A stretch of 64,000 nucleotides of DNA from positions 18,104,001-18,168,000 of the forward strand of contig NC_135251.1 in assembly GCF_964204865.1 (NCBI RefSeq), written 5' to 3'. The notes below the pieces were generated by a model. The model had not been told where the DNA came from. It saw only the letters and a list, made by a program, of their open reading frames with translations, and ran no database searches. A program made the translations under genes and the position numbers. Below are positions 23,501-57,821 of the stretch, piece by piece. Within the stretch, counting starts at the first letter, position 1; each line of letters starts with the position of its first letter. Origin of the DNA: Styela clava (taxonomy: Eukaryota > Chordata > Ascidiacea > Stolidobranchia > Styelidae).

Positions 23501-26500
23501 AACTGTTATGTTATGTAAAAATTTAGGCTAGAAAAACTAATGCATACTTCAGAGTAATAAGTTTCGTTTTTATGTCCGCTTTTTTTTCTGACATTTCCTT
23601 TCGCCTACCATCCATCATATTACGAGATTGAGTTGTTTCTTTATTACTTGTTGTAGCACCTTTTACTGTATCATTTGATTGCTTGCTTGTTGTATTTTTA
23701 TTGTCGACTATTTTGATTTCTCTTGTTTGCATGGATACTGGCGGAGAGTTTATTATTGGTGAACTTGGCTGTGGCTTTTCCTCCTTTCTCCTTTGCTTTT
23801 GTTTTTCTTTTTTAATATCCGCAGTTTTATCACTTTTCTTATCCGAGTTAGTTTTTTTAACAGCCTTTTTTGTCTTTTTATTCTTTTTGTCTTTATCTTT
23901 AGCGCTTTCAGTTGAATTTTCCGATTCCTGATTTTTGCTGGAACCGAGGTTGTTCGCAGGAAGAGGAGGAGGAAATATTTTTTGAGGTGAGATATTTTGA
24001 GGCGTTATTTGGGAGTCTGCAAGGTCCATATATAACTCATCTTCCTCCTCGACTTCCTCACTGTAGAACTTTGACTGAAAACGTGAATAATTTAATATTA
24101 ATTAAAAGCTTTTCTGTAGAATTAGAAAGGATACAATACATAAGATTTAATTTGAGTTTCAATAGCATGCTAAAATCCTTGAAAAATTATTTCTATTCGA
24201 AAAACGAACTTAATGGCACGTATGATATATCAAAGATGAGTTTTTTTTCAACAACTTATTGTTTTAAATAAATGTTACTAACCTTGCCAGCTTTTTTTTC
24301 AGTCATTGTTTCTCTCTGATTATGAAATGCCTGTTTTGCTGACGACATCACACTTGTTCGAACTTCTATTGACATGTATTGTGGTTCTGATTCTGGCATC
24401 TCTGCACACCCTGTCTCTGCAATCAACACACCGACCCATTTTCCCATCTCTGTTGAAGAATTTGCCTGAAAATCCAAATTGAAATTTTATGATTAAAACT
24501 TTGACCAAAGGTTCGTCTGTCTCATATTGATCTAATAAAACCCGCATTGAAATTCAACGAAAAAAATATCAAAAAAAACCTAGTAAAAGTTAAACATACA
24601 TCTGATGCAAGAAAAAATTATAACAAAAATTCAATGACCTCCATATACACTATTTCTTGTCCGTCTTTCAAAAGTTTAAAGCCGAATTGTCGTTCCTGGT
24701 CGTCCGAATACGGGAGCAAATCACATCCTGTCAGTTCTACTTGAACTTCGGGGGTTTCTTCTTTTCCGTATATTAATAATTTATTTGCTTTAACCAGGCA
24801 CCATTTCTTCGACCATTTGGTATCATACACGAGAAGATATCCTTCAAAATTAATTTATGATGAAGTTAAAAATCGTTTTTTAAAGCTAATAAAGTACACT
24901 TGGTTAAAGATCATACACATTATTAGACTGACTATATTTCAATAACGGGGAAAAGTTGTTCAGAACACGCTGGTCGTGCCACTGCTAGTCGCCACGCGGA
25001 AAATTTGGTGTCTGAGGGATAGGAAATACGTGCAAAACCGTTGCTAAAAATCTGTCGGATGCATGGTTTGTACACGCTGGACCAGATCAGTTAGCTACGA
25101 ATAGTATGAAAATTCTGTACTATCATATCTAATATAAATTTGATAAATAGAAAAATGATGCAAAATTACCGCAAACTGAGGCACCCAGATTCTCCGCAAC
25201 GGAAATTCTTTTCTTTGTTTTGTCTTTTTTGAACATATCTGTCATGGCACTTTTGAGCCCTTTGCCAATATCTGCAGAAAAAATTCACATTATTATCGCA
25301 CAACAGTAAATCATTTAAATATTTTCAGTATAACAATATGACGGACGGTCAAAATATATTGTAACGATGTGAGCGACTAGCAACTCATTATTGAAAAATA
25401 TCTCAGCTAATTACTGATAATGCACATTCACATATATATGAAATGCAAATCTTATATTGGAGGACTAATTCCCTAGTATGTAGTGACCTCGGAAGATTAT
25501 GTGATTTTAGTTTAGTAGTACTCGAATTATCCTTGGGATAGTCTATACTTTATTTAACAATACATGATATTGCAATTCAGTCTGTATCATGTTTTCATTA
25601 CTCCAATTTATCGGCCAAATGTTATTGTTTAAAATTAATGAGTATGCCAAAAATGAAAATATCTACGTCGAAAATGAAAATTCCTATTTTGTATATATGA
25701 TCATACAGGATTTTGAACGGATACGTTAGAATAACAAGGTGGCGGGTGACTACTCTAAAAATATCAAACAAATTGCGTGAAGCTAATGAAAAATTATTTG
25801 CATGCATTCAAAATTAAATATAATTTACAATTAAATTGTGTTGGTGTTGAGTTCATAGTTGGATGTCCAGGAGGTACAGGTGGTGGACTTAAATCTGTCA
25901 TAACTACAGATATATCTCCCATACTTTTTGCTCTTTCTGTATAGTTGAAAAATTGTAATGTGATATTTTCGTACAAAAATGTATATTAAAGACGAGTATA
26001 TATATGTACGTGCAGTAGAGTTGATGCGCACATCAAGCAGTTAAAATCAACCTCCTTGCTATAAACAATTTGAATCAATTCAATTCGTTTGCAAATCAGC
26101 TCTTTATTTATTGCTGCGGTAAAGAAAAATTATTCTATTCATCCATCATGCATTGGAATAGATAAATTAAGATATGTTACTCTCGGACTTTGAGAGAGAC
26201 GAATTACACTTATCTATTTCTAGGGAAAAAAATAAAATATTTTAGGCCATAGCATATGTGGTGCAAAATTATTAACATCTAATCACCAGCTACTCCAACT
26301 GAAGGTGTTCTTTGTATTGAAGCGTTTTGCACCCGTTGTTGCGTAGCACTACTCGAAGCATTTTGAGCTGGCAGTGGAGGTAGAGTACTAGTAGGCCTGA
26401 CAGCAACGGGAGGAGGAAGATTTGTTGTGTCAGATACCGAATGCGTTATTTCTTTCAAAACTCTAGACCAATCTTCCACTTTATCACGCATCACATAAAA

Positions 26501-49652: not shown

Positions 49653-52600
49653 TCATTGCAAATGTTTATCGATGTCTGTGATCATATCGTATGGGTGATC
49701 GCCAGCTCCGACTGATTTCAATTCTACGCCTGTTACGCTTTCTATAAACTCATAACTCCTATTAGATGCCCCTCCTGGTCCGCGTATTTCTTCGTACTTA
49801 CGCGTGGATGATTGATCTGGATCCTTTATATGTTCGTAGGAATGGTATATATTATCTTTCTGGTCACTTCTTTCCGACGGTTCCAATTTTCCATGGCACG
49901 ATTCTATAGCTGAATGTAAACGAAAATTTTAGAAACTCTAATAGGAAAAAATATGTGATTACTGATTAGTTGTCTTTTTTCCTACTTTAGGTAAATATAT
50001 ATTTTATCACTTTCATAAATACGTCTTAATTAAAAAAATAAAACAAAAATAAATTTTATTCCGTTATACCGTCACGATGCTATCTTTTTTATACGGAATA
50101 CTAAATTATGTGAAAAGATTTTTAAAATGGACTATTTCTAACTCAAATCATACCGGACTTGTTTAGTTTTGCACTATACGATATTGTTGAAATGGTATTT
50201 TTTTGTTGCTCTTCATTTTTTTCCTGCTTTTTTCTTTTCACGCAAGATACAATTGTACCGCATGCAACCAGTATGACTATAATCCAAATTACTAAAAGCA
50301 ATATGGCAAAGACGGGAAATTGCTCTGAAATAAAATTAAATTAAACATTTCTTGATTAGTTAAAATTAATATAAGTAAACAATAATAAAAATACCGGCCG
50401 AGTTTATAATAATAAATAAGTGAATAAGCATTAGTAACCTAAACACGACATTGCAAACTTCAAAAAAACAACTAAAAATCAAGTTTTATAAAACAGCTCA
50501 ACAAAAAAGTTACAAAAACAAAAAAGATAAAACAAGGTAGCACTTCTATAATATATTTCTTATAGAGTGTTCCCCATGAATTAGAATAGAATTTACGTAT
50601 TTCACACGGGGGTAAAAGCCTATAAATCGGCTTAATCATATGGCGGATTTCGTTCCATACCAGTTTTTGTATAGTGTGTAATTAGTTAATATGCGCCACA
50701 CTACGGCGACGAGGAGTTCAACAATCCTCTTGCACATAATCATCTCACGCGGAATTCGAACCCGCAGACCCAAGCGGGGTAATCAGAGGTGCGGTGGCAA
50801 GCGTATTTCTAACGCTTAGCACGATGTGCCATACCGCCCAGCAAATTAGCATATATCTGCAAAATTTCGGATCATCGGACTTAAATTTGAAAGATAAATT
50901 AAAGGTTTTGTCTCCAAGCGCCTTCAACCACCTTTGGGTGATGTACATTTTGAATGAACCTGTCTTAGTTGCGAAAAAAAAATTATCGACTACGATCACT
51001 CCAAAACAGCAAAAAGAATTTATCGAAACAATATACACATATTCACTTCGTATCAAAAAAGAATAGACGATAATGGAACCATAATAAACATTAAACATTC
51101 AATATATGCCTGGCAGTGCAGTCGGCGCCTTGGACTTAAGCACAAACGGTTGTATTAACTGACTAACTTGTTGTAATCGATTTCCATTTTTAATAAACAA
51201 AAAAAATTATTCTATCAGTTTTTACCTGGTGGGTCTGGTTCTTTCTCAAGCAATAAACCATCACTGACTTGAAACAACACTCTATTCGTTGTTGGAGTTG
51301 CGGACACGATATGAATTCTGCCACAAAGAATTTGTTCTAACGAATATTATTGCCCAGCAAACAGTATTTTGGGTCAAAGCAATATTAATAAATTGAAGAT
51401 GCTGCAAGGTATTATTATTGCCGTACATTGATAGGTAAAGTTTAACGAATAATAGAAGCCAGTACACGTTGACATCCTTATTTTTGGGGCCACTATATGG
51501 CGTTAATATGATTTCGTTACTGTTTGTTTTAACATTTGATTGAGTTCACCTTTTTTTTCCATTATAAAACGAATCTTTGACCTTCTGATGCGGTCATTCA
51601 AAAAAATATGAATAAAAATTTGCGACACTTACATGTATAAATTTGAGTTACTTACATGTATGATTTCTTTGTGCTCAGTTTCATGTTGTATCCTCTGAGT
51701 TTCATTGGTAGATCGAAGTAAGACTCGTTTGATATATTTTTCCTGTGTTTTAAATCCCCGTGCAAATAACATGTCGTGAGAGACTTTGTTCCAAGTGTAA
51801 GAGTGACATTCCCAGACTTATAACTGAATGGAGAAGGTTCATTTAATGAAGATAAAATATTTTTTAAAGAAACCAAGAGCGTATAAGAGCCCAATTAACA
51901 TTTTTTGTGGGGGTTAGGGATCTCTATATTCAAACTCAGCCATATTCACGGAATATATTTCATTTAACAAAATGTTTACAGGTAGTTTCATAATAAAATA
52001 TATGACTCATTTATGTTAAAGATGAGATAACTATGTTTTCGTGGAGCTTAAATTTTACCGGAAAGGGTTGACGAAAAATTTATGCGTGTGGCGTTTTTTC
52101 TCGGTTGGCATTGTTATTCTGAGTGAGAGTCAAACATTTTCAAATATACGTGGACAAGATTGAATCAATAACGCTAATAATAAAGCCGTGACTCGGATAA
52201 AATTTCATAACCTCATTTACACATCAAACTGATTATTGAATATAGAGTATAAAAAAACAACCTCGAGGAATTGTGTTGACAAAACAACCTACAGCATTCT
52301 ACATCGGTATACAGTATTGAACTCCTCCTACTCACGTATTGTAATCAAAACACAAAACACACATTCATATTTTCATCACAAAACCACGCTCAGTCGCTCT
52401 TACAATAAACACCATTCTTAATACATCAGCACGTGTATTAACATCGGTGTCGAGTCATTACTTGTTATTATAAACAACTTTTTGGCAAATGCCCATATTC
52501 TGGTTGAGGATATACAAGAATTTTCGACGCTGAGAATATTTTAATTCGTAGTAACGTAGACTTGCTTTGTTCTGTTCTGAAAGTATCGTGTCCTGTTGAG

Positions 52601-55600
52601 AGAAAGTGCAATATATTCTGATTCCGGTACTGTGTCGCCAACACTAGCATTTATCAGTCGTTGTTTAAGGTATAAAGTTGCAGAAACATTTGAAATGTTT
52701 GTCCGTCTTACAACAACGAATATACAGCTGAAAATATACACATTGAAAACATTGAATTGTTTTTTGATACGATTATTATTTTTCAAGTTCTTTTCGAAAA
52801 GTTGAAACATTCGAAGCTTTTTTCATTCCTACAACATTAAATATACGGCTGAATATTGCTAAAAATATACACATAATATGAATTCATGTACCTTGTAGAT
52901 ATCATATTACCAGAAAGTTTATTTTCACTTACAATCACATTGGCTAAACTTGGCTAAAAGTATTTAATTGTTTATAATAATATTATTTCCACAAAAAACC
53001 TTCAAGTCATTTTACAAAAAGAAAACATACCTGATTGGTCCATTGCCTTCATCAGGTATTTTCACATTAATTGCGAGAGTACCGTTGTCAGAAATGCTGT
53101 CATTTGTCGTCGGCTGGTCAATAAATTCTGGTGCTGTACCAAATTTACATTGGAATAGACAAACATCAACCGGGGAAATGAAGATAGGATTGCAACATTT
53201 TGGTACAACTGCTATTACTAGTGGGTATGCAATTTCATCTGTTTATAGTTTTGAAATTGGCCGACATAATGCTACTGTTTTGTTCAGTGGTTTTCAACCT
53301 TTTTGGTAGAGCGAAACCCCAATGAAACACTTTAAAGACTTGAGGAACTTTTATGTTCAATACTTGAATTGCCTACTTATATATATATAAGAGTGAAGCT
53401 CAAACTGACAAAACAATATGTGCATATAATGATACAGACTCTCAGTTAATAATAGAAGCTTGCAGACCCTTGGGCTGTACTGACGTAATTCTGGGGTTAC
53501 GTAAACCACTGGTGAAGTAATAACTTGCACAATTGTGCAAAAGGTTTTAATTACCTTTTGTATGAGTGACACATTCTCCGTCAGGCACTTTAAATTCTCC
53601 GTATCCAGCGCATGTTTTAGCTTGTATGGTCACATAGTATTTTCTATTAGGAATATTTGGAAATTGGAAGGTCTGATTTGTATAATTATCTAATAAATAT
53701 TCAAATGTGTTTGATGGTATTGAATATCCGAAAAACGGCACTTTCGCCAATGAACTCGAAACATTAATCTGTAAAATTGAAGTAGTAAAATTATTTGCAT
53801 GGCATGTCGTTACATTCACAATGAAGCTAAAATATAGTCTGGGATAGAATTGTGTTTTGCTCATAAATCAGGTCTACCGGTTTGGTTATTTGTATGTTTA
53901 ACATAACAGATGTCATTTAATAAAGGCCGATTAATCTGAGATAATGGGTGTTGGATTATATTATATTATATATTATATTGCCGATATCACAAAGGGTATT
54001 TTTACAGAATTAAGATAAAAAATTTACAAAAATTTACCTTAAACCCAATAATATCGGAATGCTGATTTTCCAATGGAAACGACCAAGAAACTTTGCAAAA
54101 TCCTTTGTAAGTGTCAATGGAGGGGTTTGAAACAGGTCCAGGCAATCCTTTTGTTTTTAAACCAGGGCTTACTGCAGTATATGACGAGTAACAATCAAGT
54201 GGACATGGAAAAATCTAGAGTTATTGCAGATTGATTAAAAATTGGCAGTTGTTGTTAAAGCATGCAACAAAAATATTTACCTCCAATCTATAAAATGTTG
54301 ATGGAATCAAATCTTTGAATTCGATATTAACATTTCCATTTGCATAAACGTACTTTTCTTTAACTATAATGTATCGTGGACTGATTTTCAAAATGATTCT
54401 AAAATCAAAAAAGTGTAGATCCAATTGAAAAAAGAAAATATTAAGACTTCGAGTATTGAAATGGCTATTTATATATACTTTTTGAAAATATTCAAAAAAT
54501 AGTTTTCATCGCAGAAAGTATTTTAAAACGTGGGTCTATCTAAAAAAAAAATGAATCACGACGTGTAAAAAATATCAAACAGTAGATAAAATCGATTAAA
54601 ACTGTATATGTACGTTTCACATTTTAAATAATACCCATGTAATACCAAAACCTTCAACCAAACGTGTGCATAAAACGTAAGAATATTGGCGAATTAGTCA
54701 ACTATACGAATGTACTCACTTGTGTCTTAACCCAATAGCTTTCGGATGAGATCTCCACTTGATGATTAATGTAGACTCGCATGGTAATGATGTTCTTGAT
54801 AAAATTGTTGGTCGACTTGGTACTAGTCCATAAAAGCAATATTACTCACAAAAATATTTACAATAAAATATTAACAATGTTAAATGTCCTTCAATTGACT
54901 GCTAATCACCTGCCTAATTTTGATAAATTCATTCTTTGCCAGTATATATGCATAAACTAATAAATTAAATATTATCGCTGAAGGATGTTTTGCCAAACAT
55001 TCACTATTTTGTTTAATGAACACATAAATTATGCCTTTTGTAGAGTTGGCCATCTTCATGACAATTGGCACCCTATGATAATTAATTTTACACCTAACTA
55101 CGGACCGTTTTGCAAATTTCTTGTTGTTATTTTTGTGATCGTATCAGTTTTAAATTTTTATTGCCCAGAGATGGTAGAATTAGCAAAAAAGCTATTACTT
55201 TAATACAATCTCCCCTTTTTTTCAAATTTTGATATTTCATCAAAAATTTTGACGTTTCAATTTAACTGAAGAGAAACGTTTTGATTTCATACTGCTAGAC
55301 CACCCCCATATTGTTGGTCAACCAATTTTACCAGCAAAATCGGTGCTCACATACGTGGCCGTAAATACCGATTGGCAACCTTCGTCCTCAAATATATGAT
55401 AATTGCTTTCTTTTTTCAGTAAAAATATCTAATTTAAAATAGGTCATTTGTGATCTAACATTAAAAAAAAAACATTCGAAATTTTATCAGACGCTAGTAA
55501 ATTTATTGCATAAATATACGTACTTTCAAATTTGGTTATTTACATTGACTCGTTTTCTGAGCCCCTTTGGGTGTTAATTGTGAGTTTAGAGTTTGGTATG

Positions 55601-57821
55601 TTCTTAAATATAAGTATAACTCAAATGACTATCTTCAGTTTGTCTGTTAACGAGTTTAGATCAATTGCAGTATAAAAAAACGAAAAGTAACATTCAATAC
55701 TTTTCAATGGCTGCTGCTCGAACCATTAAAATTAAAAAGATACGAACTAGTTTACACTCGTCAACTCGTAGAAAATGTCAAAACAAAAGTCAAAAAAATA
55801 TTGGTAAAGTACAACTCTGTGGACAAAGCGATAGGGAACCCCCTATTAGCAATAATATTATTTACTGAATCTCTCAAGTATCATTCAATAACGATACATT
55901 GTTTAAAACAGAAAAATAAATGAAAATTTTATATTCGGAAAAAGTTGATGTACCTCTCACAACGGCTTGTCCAGATCTCGTTCCTACAGTGTTTTTAGCA
56001 ATGCAATTGTACACTCCTTCGTTTAGTAAGTTTGTATTGGATAAGTATAAACTTGATTGACCTGTGCCTTGACTTTGATACACTCGAGAGGATGATGTGA
56101 AAGTAATTTTATGGTTTCTGTAATACCAGAGGACGTCTGGAGTTGGATAACCAGACAGTTGACAAACGACGGAATTGGAAGTTTGTTTTATAGAAATTGT
56201 TGTTCCAATCCACCCTGAGAAAAATATCAATTAGGACTTATTCAACGACTATCACAGTTCGCTCTGCCTTTCTTGAGTAATAATTTTATTATTATTAATA
56301 TTCAAAGCCCCCACCAAGTCTCAAAATAATCAAATTAATAATTATTCAGTTTAGTTTAAAAATTCGAATTGCCATGGCGAAGGCTTTGTACAAAAGATCA
56401 ACAATTTCTTCTACAGCCCTAAACAAAATTCTTATTCAAATTTTTAATGCAAAATCAATCTTCTCACTCAGAAACACGTACATTTCCTTTGGCAGACATA
56501 GCCAAATTTTGAATTCCGAAGTTTGTCATCTATCAGGCCATCCTTTTTTCTTATAATTGCATAGTCTTCATTACCCCCGAAATTCGGCCATCCCCCATTG
56601 TCTGGTTGACCGGGTTCCCTACATAAAATATTGAATGAAATAGGGTTTTGGTAATTTTTTGTTTTCGTAGCAATGCAATTAAAATCCTAACTTTTGCGCG
56701 CAACTATTCTTATATAGCGTGAATATTCATTCTCAAAAAAGTATTCCAAAATCTTCTTTAAGTTCCTCATTAGTTCTGCATTACATTAATATATGCGTTT
56801 AAAACTGCATACTTGAATACGTAACTTAACATATAGAAATGATAATACCCGGCGGTGTTAATGCAATATTCGCGAACTATTGTTGGCTGTCCGGGATGTA
56901 CATCGCTTTGGATTATTTTTTACCGACTGTATAAAGCAGTTAGTTACCATTTTCATTGGTCTACGTTGAAATTCTTAATGCGAGATAAAAGGTTTGCTAG
57001 TGACAAGATTGGCTATAGATCTTGTAGTGTAGTGCAATAAAAATATACTAAAAGTAAAATTGAATAATTAACAAAAATCTAATAACTAACCACGGAATAC
57101 CATATGCATATGACCCGCCCAACCATTTCCATGTTCCTCCGCGTGACAGCTCATATAATCCTATCCACAGCTCATTGATGGACGTACTACAGTACAATGC
57201 AATATAGATTAAAATATGGGATGGACCCAACAAAGAGTTATCATTGGACCAAATCAGTTAGATATTTCACAAGTTTCTTTTGATATATACTGCTAGGATG
57301 GTAATATTGATATTGAATGGTATCGTTATTTTCACATACCATTTTTGACAGGACATCCACCACGCGGGTGTAATAAGTTGGTAGGCTATACCAAAAACAC
57401 AGAACCTCTGCCTCCTATATAAACCCGTTTTTAGGTAGAAGTGCGACATTACACATTCGATCGGTAAAAGGAATAAAACCTTATATAACGTGACAAAAAA
57501 ATTAAAACAATATTCTACCGCCCTAAGTTAGACCGCAAGGCACTTAGTGCTTCATCGGAGTTCACAAGATTGAATCCCATATTTTGACAAGATGCACTTG
57601 CTCCATCCCAAGTCACGCGACTTGAATAGAATCTCCACTCGTAGCCGGCTGCAATGTGAAAACCAAGTTTAGAGGCAATTAGGCAATGTTGCTATTTGAA
57701 CTTATTGCTAATTTTTTCATCTCATTATTGTACTTTGTCGCTTTACTGATTACTTACCGTGAACGGATTTTAAAGATACTAAAAGTTGAAATGCTAAAAG
57801 TAAATTGTTGAAATTAAACAT
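49653..57821 (-). CDS. Type I receptor: C-type lectin + Ig + 3 FN3 + TM + ITAM-like tail, 15 exons, 776 aa
   Basis: Minus exons: 57821-57758, 57648-57519, 57186-57091, 56618-56482, 56214-55954, 54822-54720, 54398-54281, 54214-54038, 53768-53555, 53211-53031, 52727-52566, 51823-51656, 51317-51226, 50324-50154, 49909-49653. Phases agree throughout (2331 nt). Signal peptide 1-21. CTLD 22-142 has the WIGL core, GTWKW, and QPD (as EPGQPDNGG), but lacks WND and the second disulfide pair. I-set Ig 143-229 (VVCQLSGYPTPDVLWYY, EGVYNCIAKN). FN3 modules at about 230-320, 321-430 and 455-630; the last resembles membrane-proximal FN3 of receptor phosphatases (PDEGNGPIS, then VVVRR). TM 638-663 (VFAILLLVIWIIVILVACG), then KRKK. 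The tail carries YEHI, YEEI, YEFI and YDMI and no enzyme domain. I infer signalling through SH2 proteins after ligand binding. Intron 11 is GC-AG. AATAAA lies 2 nt after the stop and again near 49501. Exons are secure; function is inferred. Confidence 0.88.
50608..50835 (-). repeat. tRNA-derived SINE-like element, copy 2
   Basis: Matches the element at 13070-13345 block by block: CGGCTTAATCATATGGCG, GACGAGGAGTTCAACAATCC, then the tRNA-like end with B box GGTTCGAATTCC on the minus strand (about 50763-50752). It sits in the receptor gene's intron between the juxtamembrane exon 13 and the TM exon 14. Open frames of 90-117 codons across it are not genes. Confidence 0.65.
53285..53511. mobile_element. 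Short hAT-like MITE in receptor intron
   Basis: Left end CAGTGGTTTTCAACCTTTTT and right end GGTTACGTAAACCACTG are imperfect inverted repeats of hAT type. I saw no 8-bp target duplication, so the borders or the class may be wrong. It lies between exons 9 and 10 of the receptor gene. Confidence 0.5.

Follow-up and report, generated by a model that had tools for sequence, protein, structure and literature searches.

A Styela clava lectin and immunoglobulin receptor gene with a paired-tyrosine tail, and related receptors with tandem phosphatases

The gene and its exons

The 64,000-nucleotide stretch of Styela clava DNA described here (positions 18,104,001 to 18,168,000 of contig NC_135251.1), called the window below, holds a minus-strand gene for a putative cell-surface receptor. 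The gene runs from an ATG at 57821 to a TGA at 49653, and its 15 coding exons splice in frame into a protein of 750 amino acids (aa). The outer part has a C-type lectin domain, an immunoglobulin (Ig) domain and units resembling fibronectin type III (FN3) domains. A transmembrane (TM) segment and a tail with tyrosine motifs follow.

Whole-genome searches covered an assembly of 376.6 Mb in 379 contigs, where the window lies on the contig called C2. A search with the window protein gives, apart from its own gene, Ig matches in scattered places, and on contig C3, around 17.96-18.23 Mb, a cluster in which the FN3-like part is matched as well. This cluster is a tandem array at C3:17.95-18.24 Mb, with ectodomains related to that of the window gene and the same exon order. 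Some of its members end in a tyrosine-motif tail, others in a tandem tyrosine phosphatase. The exons of the window gene are listed here, together with the array exons that match them.

57758..57821, minus strand: exon 1; start codon and signal peptide MFNFNNLLLAFQLLVSLKSVH, the latter assigned by eye; donor GTAAGT
57519..57648, minus strand: exon 2; C-type lectin, part 1; array exon c1a matches, E 2.5e-5
57091..57186, minus strand: exon 3; C-type lectin, part 2; array exon c1b matches, E 3.1e-6
56482..56618, minus strand: exon 4; C-type lectin, part 3, with QPD and NED; unmatched by array exon c1c
55954..56214, minus strand: exon 5; I-set Ig, 41.6 bits against a cut-off of 23.7
54720..54822, minus strand: exon 6; FN3-like unit 1, part 1; array exon f1a matches, E 5.4e-10
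54281..54398, minus strand: exon 7; FN3-like unit 1, part 2; array counterpart at the same place once phases are required
54038..54214, minus strand: exon 8; FN3-like unit 2, part 1; fn3 19.7 bits over residues 344-422 (exons 8-9), below cut-off
53555..53768, minus strand: exon 9; FN3-like unit 2, part 2; matched by an array exon
53031..53133, minus strand: exon 10; FN3-like unit 3 (membrane-proximal), part 1; array f3a match from 53137; in-frame alternative acceptor upstream, 53238
52566..52727, minus strand: exon 11; FN3-like unit 3, part 2 SEYIALSLNRTRY; GC donor; array f3b match, E 1.2e-4
51656..51823, minus strand: exon 12; FN3-like unit 3, part 3; weak array f3c match, E 0.011
51226..51317, minus strand: exon 13; FN3-like unit 3, part 4; array f3d match, E 2.4e-6
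50154..50324, minus strand: exon 14; TM segment and juxtamembrane TISTIS motif
49653..49909, minus strand: exon 15; tail with Y690-EHI, Y704-EEI, Y718-EFI and Y739-DMI, then the stop

All 14 acceptors are AG and 13 of the 14 donors are GT; the donor after exon 11 is GC (GCAAGT). A first model of 14 exons, without exon 11, was also in frame. Comparison with the array paralogues brought out exon 11 and pointed to an acceptor that makes exon 10 shorter and suits it better; both changes were adopted. An earlier note, made from the letters of this DNA, had proposed 15 exons in frame from signal peptide to stop. The exon count agrees; identity of the borders exon by exon is not claimed.

When the array exons are used as queries against the window, 10 of the 14 exons after exon 1 are matched at the predicted places (2, 3, 5, 6 and 8-13). 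Exons 4, 14 and 15 have no match from these queries, and exon 7 is matched by the window's own sequence only. No long repeats were found within the gene.

Domains of the protein

The protein passes the Pfam cut-offs for a C-type lectin domain (Lectin_C, 34.3 bits against 22.6) and for I-set. It has one fn3 match, which stays below the 25-bit cut-off. Two paralogues reach 23.7 and 24.2 bits, at two different units and also below it, and the last unit has no fn3 match in Pfam. Of the proposed lectin, Ig and three FN3 domains, the first two stand; the others are called FN3-like units here.

The last of these units had been likened to that of receptor phosphatases. This likeness was not recovered: a profile of the unit from four sequences finds no relative in the PDB, and gives five T-cell-receptor matches at chance level (E 1 or worse). 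The suggested Tie-like ancestor is not supported either. No kinase is found in the protein, the array contains none of the 150 best-scoring kinase matches of the genome that were listed, and the nearest of them on C2 is at 18.569 Mb, about 0.4 Mb from the gene.

The absence of a kinase or phosphatase domain, as the earlier note had it, is borne out by Pfam for the protein. Sushi domains are also absent from it, with Pfam giving the lectin and one I-set. Phosphatase-exon queries against the 64-kb window reach E 0.032 at best, which is chance level, as a reversed-window decoy reaches 0.026 with another query. The window gene is therefore not a receptor protein tyrosine phosphatase, though relatives are. 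The protein is predicted to cross the membrane once, with a strong TM segment at residues ~611-635 (19-residue hydropathy peak 3.27).

Read by eye against the consensus of its class, the lectin domain shows QPD and NED at the positions used for binding calcium and sugar, and of the two usual cysteine pairs one is missing. From its QPD loop, the window protein would be expected to prefer sugars of the galactose type. In the paralogues the QPD position reads EPN, EPS, QPN or DPN.

The tail reads YEHI-x10-YEEI-x10-YEFI plus YDMI, which makes two overlapping YxxI-x10-YxxI pairs. Each pair, with its spacer of 10, fits the pattern of an immunoreceptor tyrosine-based activation motif (ITAM), here YxxI/L-x6-12-YxxI/L. 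The tandem tyrosine motifs of the earlier note thus hold up, as four Yxx[ILV], the first three of them at x10 spacing. Among 100,000 shuffles of the 85-residue tail, 143 have four or more Yxx[ILV], and 1,762 have any YxxI/L-x6-12-YxxI/L pair. None of the four motifs fits the consensus of the immunoreceptor tyrosine-based inhibitory motif (ITIM), [SIVL]xYxx[ILV].

The receptor array on C3

Array exons were surveyed in 200 kb (C3:17950001-18150000). The fuller members have two lectin domains, an Ig domain, FN3-like exons and a TM segment. There are 18 segments, of which nine (B, C, D, F, G, I, J, K and L) have a near-complete ectodomain set, F being without two exons of lectin 1. Member A is without lectin 1, the Ig domain and the first FN3-like exon, and the remaining eight segments are fragments.

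Over Ig+FN3, identity is 63-94% among array members and 38-41% between them and the window gene. In the members checked (C, F, I, B and L), the two best splice-site candidates include one of the window-gene phase at most borders. Exceptions are the f2b acceptors and, for example, c1b of L and f3a of F; the f3b donor was read by eye.

Spliced by a crude script, the tail genes B, G and I have no internal stop. These models start after the signal exon and some of their borders are unsure, with exon f1b of B and G probably misbounded. The ectodomain of C is also stop-free, D comes out without a tail, and F, J and K come out of frame (an exon missing or a bad join). The trees below are based on exon-level alignments and not on these spliced models.

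Stops occur in exon matches of A, D, E, G, H, J, K, X1, X4 and X5. In D and G, judged by eye, the stops come before the f2b acceptor, and in J the stop follows the f3b donor; K has a stop within lectin 1. The stops of A are inside its phosphatase exons, and A is therefore taken as broken.

Repeats also occur between the genes, where fragments X2, X3 and X5 have f2a and f3b exons in common. C and F, B and D, and D and G stand 44-49 kb apart in each case, as if duplication had copied a block made up of a tail gene, fragments and a phosphatase gene.

Two cytoplasmic modules

A whole-genome search with one array TM+tail sequence gives 26 matches, all on C3. They include 11 stop-free tail exons and one degraded one. 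Seven tails were read, and all seven have two YxxI motifs, in six of them as YETI-x6-YEDI; in K the spacing is x4. In two of the seven (J and K) the tail ends in SQYETV, which is an ITIM consensus.

These two tails lie at C3:18117332-18117490 (J) and C3:18133412-18133567 (K), and the other five have G, C or D at position -2. Among the seven, a single residue thus switches the last tyrosine between ITIM and non-ITIM.

The self-contained chain of the earlier note is supported: the window gene joins a lectin, Ig and FN3-like ectodomain to paired YxxI motifs in one protein, and it belongs to a multigene family. In a profile alignment, the window and array tails have in common TIS[ST]IS after the membrane, then YExI, YE[ED]I and PY[DE]. 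The window tail and the array tails likely share descent.

The other module is a phosphatase. PF00102 exons are found at at least five places in the C3 array and at C2:18.4156-18.4197 Mb; one of these six loci has stops. Member C has no stop in its exon matches, from the lectin through both phosphatase domains. Its hand-joined protein scores 350 bits for Y_phosphatase in Pfam, in two stretches, and the first domain (D1) is closest to LAR/PTPRF in the PDB (E 5.5e-95). By eye, D1 contains WPD as well as HCSAGAGRTG, the latter spanning an exon join; the second domain (D2) has the cysteine and is without WPD.

The ratio of nonsynonymous to synonymous substitution rates (dN/dS) between C and F is 0.12 for D1 and 0.155 for D2, so that both domains are under constraint between these two members. 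dN/dS was computed for 11 hand-picked pairs, and fewer for some domains.

Both cytoplasmic modules start with a phase-1 acceptor, and exchange between them therefore preserves the frame. Adjoining phosphatase and tail genes stand tail to tail twice, C with D and F with G.

A phosphatase relative is also found near the window gene. When the ectodomain of C is searched against the genome, the only matches outside the array, among the best 91 of 289 candidates, are at C2:18.424-18.426 Mb. These comprise one lectin, Ig and FN3-like exons, which lie upstream of the C2 phosphatase exons and share their strand. Like the window gene, this relative showed no second lectin. It lies ~254 kb from the window gene, and over Ig+FN3 it is 60-67% identical to the array versus 37.6% to the window gene. 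The proposed kinship with receptor phosphatases is supported in so far as relatives whose exons follow the same order continue into a tyrosine phosphatase of two domains; the proposed loss of the enzyme is one possible direction, and gain is the other.

Reassortment

If outer parts and signalling modules had always been inherited together, phosphatase members would form one clade. In a tree of 11 Ig+FN3 rows, a single clade of the phosphatase members A, C and F is rejected by the approximately unbiased (AU) test (p-AU 0.0005). With 13 rows and five phosphatase members it is rejected again (AU p 0.005), and likewise for lectin 2 (11 rows, four of them phosphatases, 88 columns; p 3.7e-11). The fragments E, H and X1-X6 were left out, the Ig of J was shortened, and the trees were rooted on the window gene.

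Individual pairs give the same picture. M (phosphatase) and K (tail) are 87.4% identical in lectin 2 and 68.9% in Ig+FN3, and F (phosphatase) is 85.7% identical to I (tail) over Ig+FN3. As phosphatase members do not form one ectodomain clade, outer parts and signalling modules have been reshuffled. In the rooted trees phosphatase members sit among tail members, a pattern compatible with either loss or gain of the phosphatase.

The array brings together, in one cluster, the sequence features of paired receptors: highly similar ectodomains and opposite cytoplasmic modules. The window gene itself has only its distant phosphatase relative on C2. The sequence itself shows the gene with its domains, the family it belongs to, ectodomains common to two kinds of cytoplasmic module, and the reassortment of outer and inner parts.

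Interpretation

The window gene is probably a single-chain lectin/Ig receptor that signals via its own paired YxxI, and a diverged member of a paired family with a tandem-phosphatase branch. The two branches together resemble an on/off system of receptors. The lectin and Ig domains would bind a glycan-bearing ligand on a microbe or a cell. On clustering, Src-type kinases would phosphorylate the tail, and the doubled phospho-YxxI would recruit a Syk-type kinase with tandem SH2 domains. Phosphatase siblings with the same or a similar ligand would join the cluster and remove the phosphates. They would do in one chain what ITIM receptors do via borrowed SHP phosphatases.

Candidate partners exist in the genome. 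A 624-aa open frame at C5:24.185-24.187 Mb combines two SH2 domains with a tyrosine kinase, arranged as in Syk, which fits the predicted recruitment partner. At C8:10.922-10.926 Mb, two SH2 exons are followed by a phosphatase exon, as in SHP. In the parts of the sources drawn on here, Botryllus ampullae are described as expressing homologues of nearly all proteins of the ITAM/ITIM pathways, except LAT and SLP-76 (PMC12065747), and the Ciona annotation includes a SYK gene (PMC10433773). Vertebrate CD45 and CD148 restrain Dectin-1, and their size excludes both from the contact, according to the portion of PMC10815196 consulted. The phosphatase siblings have a like ectodomain, and would therefore be expected to be drawn into the contact, not kept out.

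A wider reading, that of a chordate recognition system, is offered tentatively. Exon exchange in the array may split a lectin/Ig repertoire between ITAM-substrate receptors and phosphatase receptors, so that the ectodomains expressed would set the balance of kinase and phosphatase, possibly with haplotype-specific content as in allorecognition loci. If true, the ITIM-SHP logic of paired immune receptors would be fused into a single chain.

Several observations count against the interpretation of the window gene. Its motif spacing is 10, and that of classical ITAMs, at 6-8, is shorter. The whole-genome TM+tail search, with its 26 matches, misses the window tail, which is also unmatched by array tail queries or by the array TM exon K. 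A profile of six array TM+tail sequences does rank it first of 2,001 (against 2,000 shuffles), yet with E 0.023. Its ectodomain identity to the others is that low 38-41%, on a long branch, and the gene is absent from the genome list obtained with the ectodomain of C, among the best 91 of 289 candidates. Exon 11 depends on its GC donor.

Within the array, dN/dS is 0.67 for TM + tail exons (7 pairs), and constraint there is therefore mild. Given the spacing of 4 in K and the SQYETV of J and K, some tails might not be activating. Support is weak for many inner branches of the trees, and 95 of 500 label shuffles require no more changes of type than the real labels. Type is thus neither clustered nor proven random.

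The spacings also speak for the strongest alternative, which is nonetheless unlikely: a receptor of the same family that uses its tyrosines for adhesion, endocytosis or general docking of Src or adaptors, and not for immune signalling of the ITAM type. YEEI is a general SH2 motif of the Src family, Yxx-hydrophobic motifs serve in sorting too, and FN3/Ig ectodomains are common in adhesion and guidance. The spacing of 10 in the window tail and of 4 in tail K would suit such uses. Set against this are the several evenly spaced YxxI of the window tail, the x6 spacing in six of the seven array tails, the lectin domain, and a tandem multicopy array with two opposing cytoplasmic modules.

It is improbable that the tail form arose from the phosphatases as a decoy or co-receptor that competes for ligand and whose tyrosines are simple substrates. 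Tail form and phosphatase siblings do have the ectodomain in common, and truncation could yield copies without phosphatase; where the phosphatase would be, however, the tail form has a TM exon of its own and a tail exon that is conserved, which is not a truncation.

A gene-model artefact joining exons of two genes, or a pseudogene or dying copy, is very improbable. In its favour, the gene is known from genomic DNA alone, exon 11 has a GC site in place of the array's GT donor, the array has broken copies, and exons 4, 14 and 15 are unmatched by array exons. Against it, the 15 exons are stop-free, and the same exon order and the link from ectodomain to tail recur in the array.

Comparison with known receptors

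LAR and its R2A relatives consist of Ig, FN3 and tandem phosphatase domains. The phosphatase siblings resemble them in having Ig, FN3-like units, one TM segment and D1-D2, with the D1 of C closest to LAR/PTPRF. Members of the present family differ by starting with one or two C-type lectin domains, and the window gene and its tail-type siblings differ by having a tyrosine-motif tail and no phosphatase.

Vertebrate paired receptors include SIRP, PILR, KIR, LILR and CLEC. Such receptors are thought to evolve by swaps of activating and inhibitory signalling tails under a shared ectodomain. In the array, a substrate tail trades places with an enzyme of the type that acts on tails like it. The general description of paired receptors, as far as taken from PMC3533184, is of very similar ectodomains on opposing signalling modules. 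The array is like this; it differs in that the presumed opposing partner carries the phosphatase itself and not an ITIM, and in that the ITAM-like motif is in the receptor chain and not in an adaptor.

Among ascidians, the Botryllus fester co-receptors (FcoR) are, in the sections of PMC12065747 used, multigene type I receptors of 520-610 aa with a V-type Ig, sushi and two C2 Ig domains, ITIM or hemITAM tails, and polymorphic clusters. Being ascidian multigene type I receptors with tyrosine-motif tails, they are comparable. The present family has lectin, I-set Ig, FN3-like units, paired YxxI and phosphatase siblings, and does not have the domain make-up given for FcoR in those sections.

The earlier note had considered a self-contained ITAM receptor unusual. 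The single-chain receptor stands, but there is an ascidian precedent: a Halocynthia haemocyte glycoprotein with two ITAMs, from 1997 JBC work cited in PMC5465252. It is likewise an ascidian membrane protein with its own ITAMs. The comparison is with the brief description in that review, and homology is not inferred.

Dectin-1 and CLEC-2 are type II proteins with one lectin domain and one YxxL, and the ectodomains of CD45 and CD148 are unrelated to theirs. Here, in contrast, the phosphatases share the receptor ectodomain. The likeness is that of lectin receptors with a tyrosine motif, and in the case of Dectin-1 of control by the phosphatases CD45 and CD148 (PMC10815196, in part).

The sea urchin PTPRLec is a receptor phosphatase with a lectin domain. 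We know of no tail-type sibling of it. The present architecture is not described in the titles and abstract starts of the papers listed from the open-licence literature. Within that literature, ITAM-like and phosphatase forms of one predicted lectin/Ig ectodomain family, with evidence of exchange, appear to be new.

If the pairing is functional, it would be a second, independent solution to the problem of the ITAM threshold, in an apparent close invertebrate relative of the vertebrates, and it would tie receptor phosphatases directly to lectin recognition. For studies of allorecognition and haemocyte recognition, there is now a concrete gene set beyond fester.

Other observations

A glycoside hydrolase 6 (GH6) exon is present in the assembly at 35.4 bits (cut-off 27), which fits a tunicate, since GH6 is not known in animals outside the tunicates. 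COX1 gave no match in the assembly. The window has no Rfam family and no tRNA, and eight other open reading frames in it have no Pfam match. An open frame at 23526-24101, minus strand, codes for 192 aa of lysine-rich, low-complexity sequence, also without Pfam match.

Tyrosine-phosphatase exons are clustered beyond C3 as well, at C1:24.80-26.37, C2:10.87-11.45, C2:6.44-6.56, C10:19.09-19.15, C13:13.82-13.83 and C6:14.21-14.24 Mb. There are at least 152 PF00102 matches genome-wide, which suggests a large phosphatase expansion in this genome.

Kinase-like open frames of ~290-340 aa are clustered at C10:4.07-4.38, C5:2.65-4.43 and C18:1.84-1.99 Mb. Minus-strand runs of fn3 exons, ~80-95 kb each, lie at C1:11.25-11.33 Mb and C16:6.07-6.17 Mb. 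These are perhaps giant FN3 proteins or paralogous clusters.

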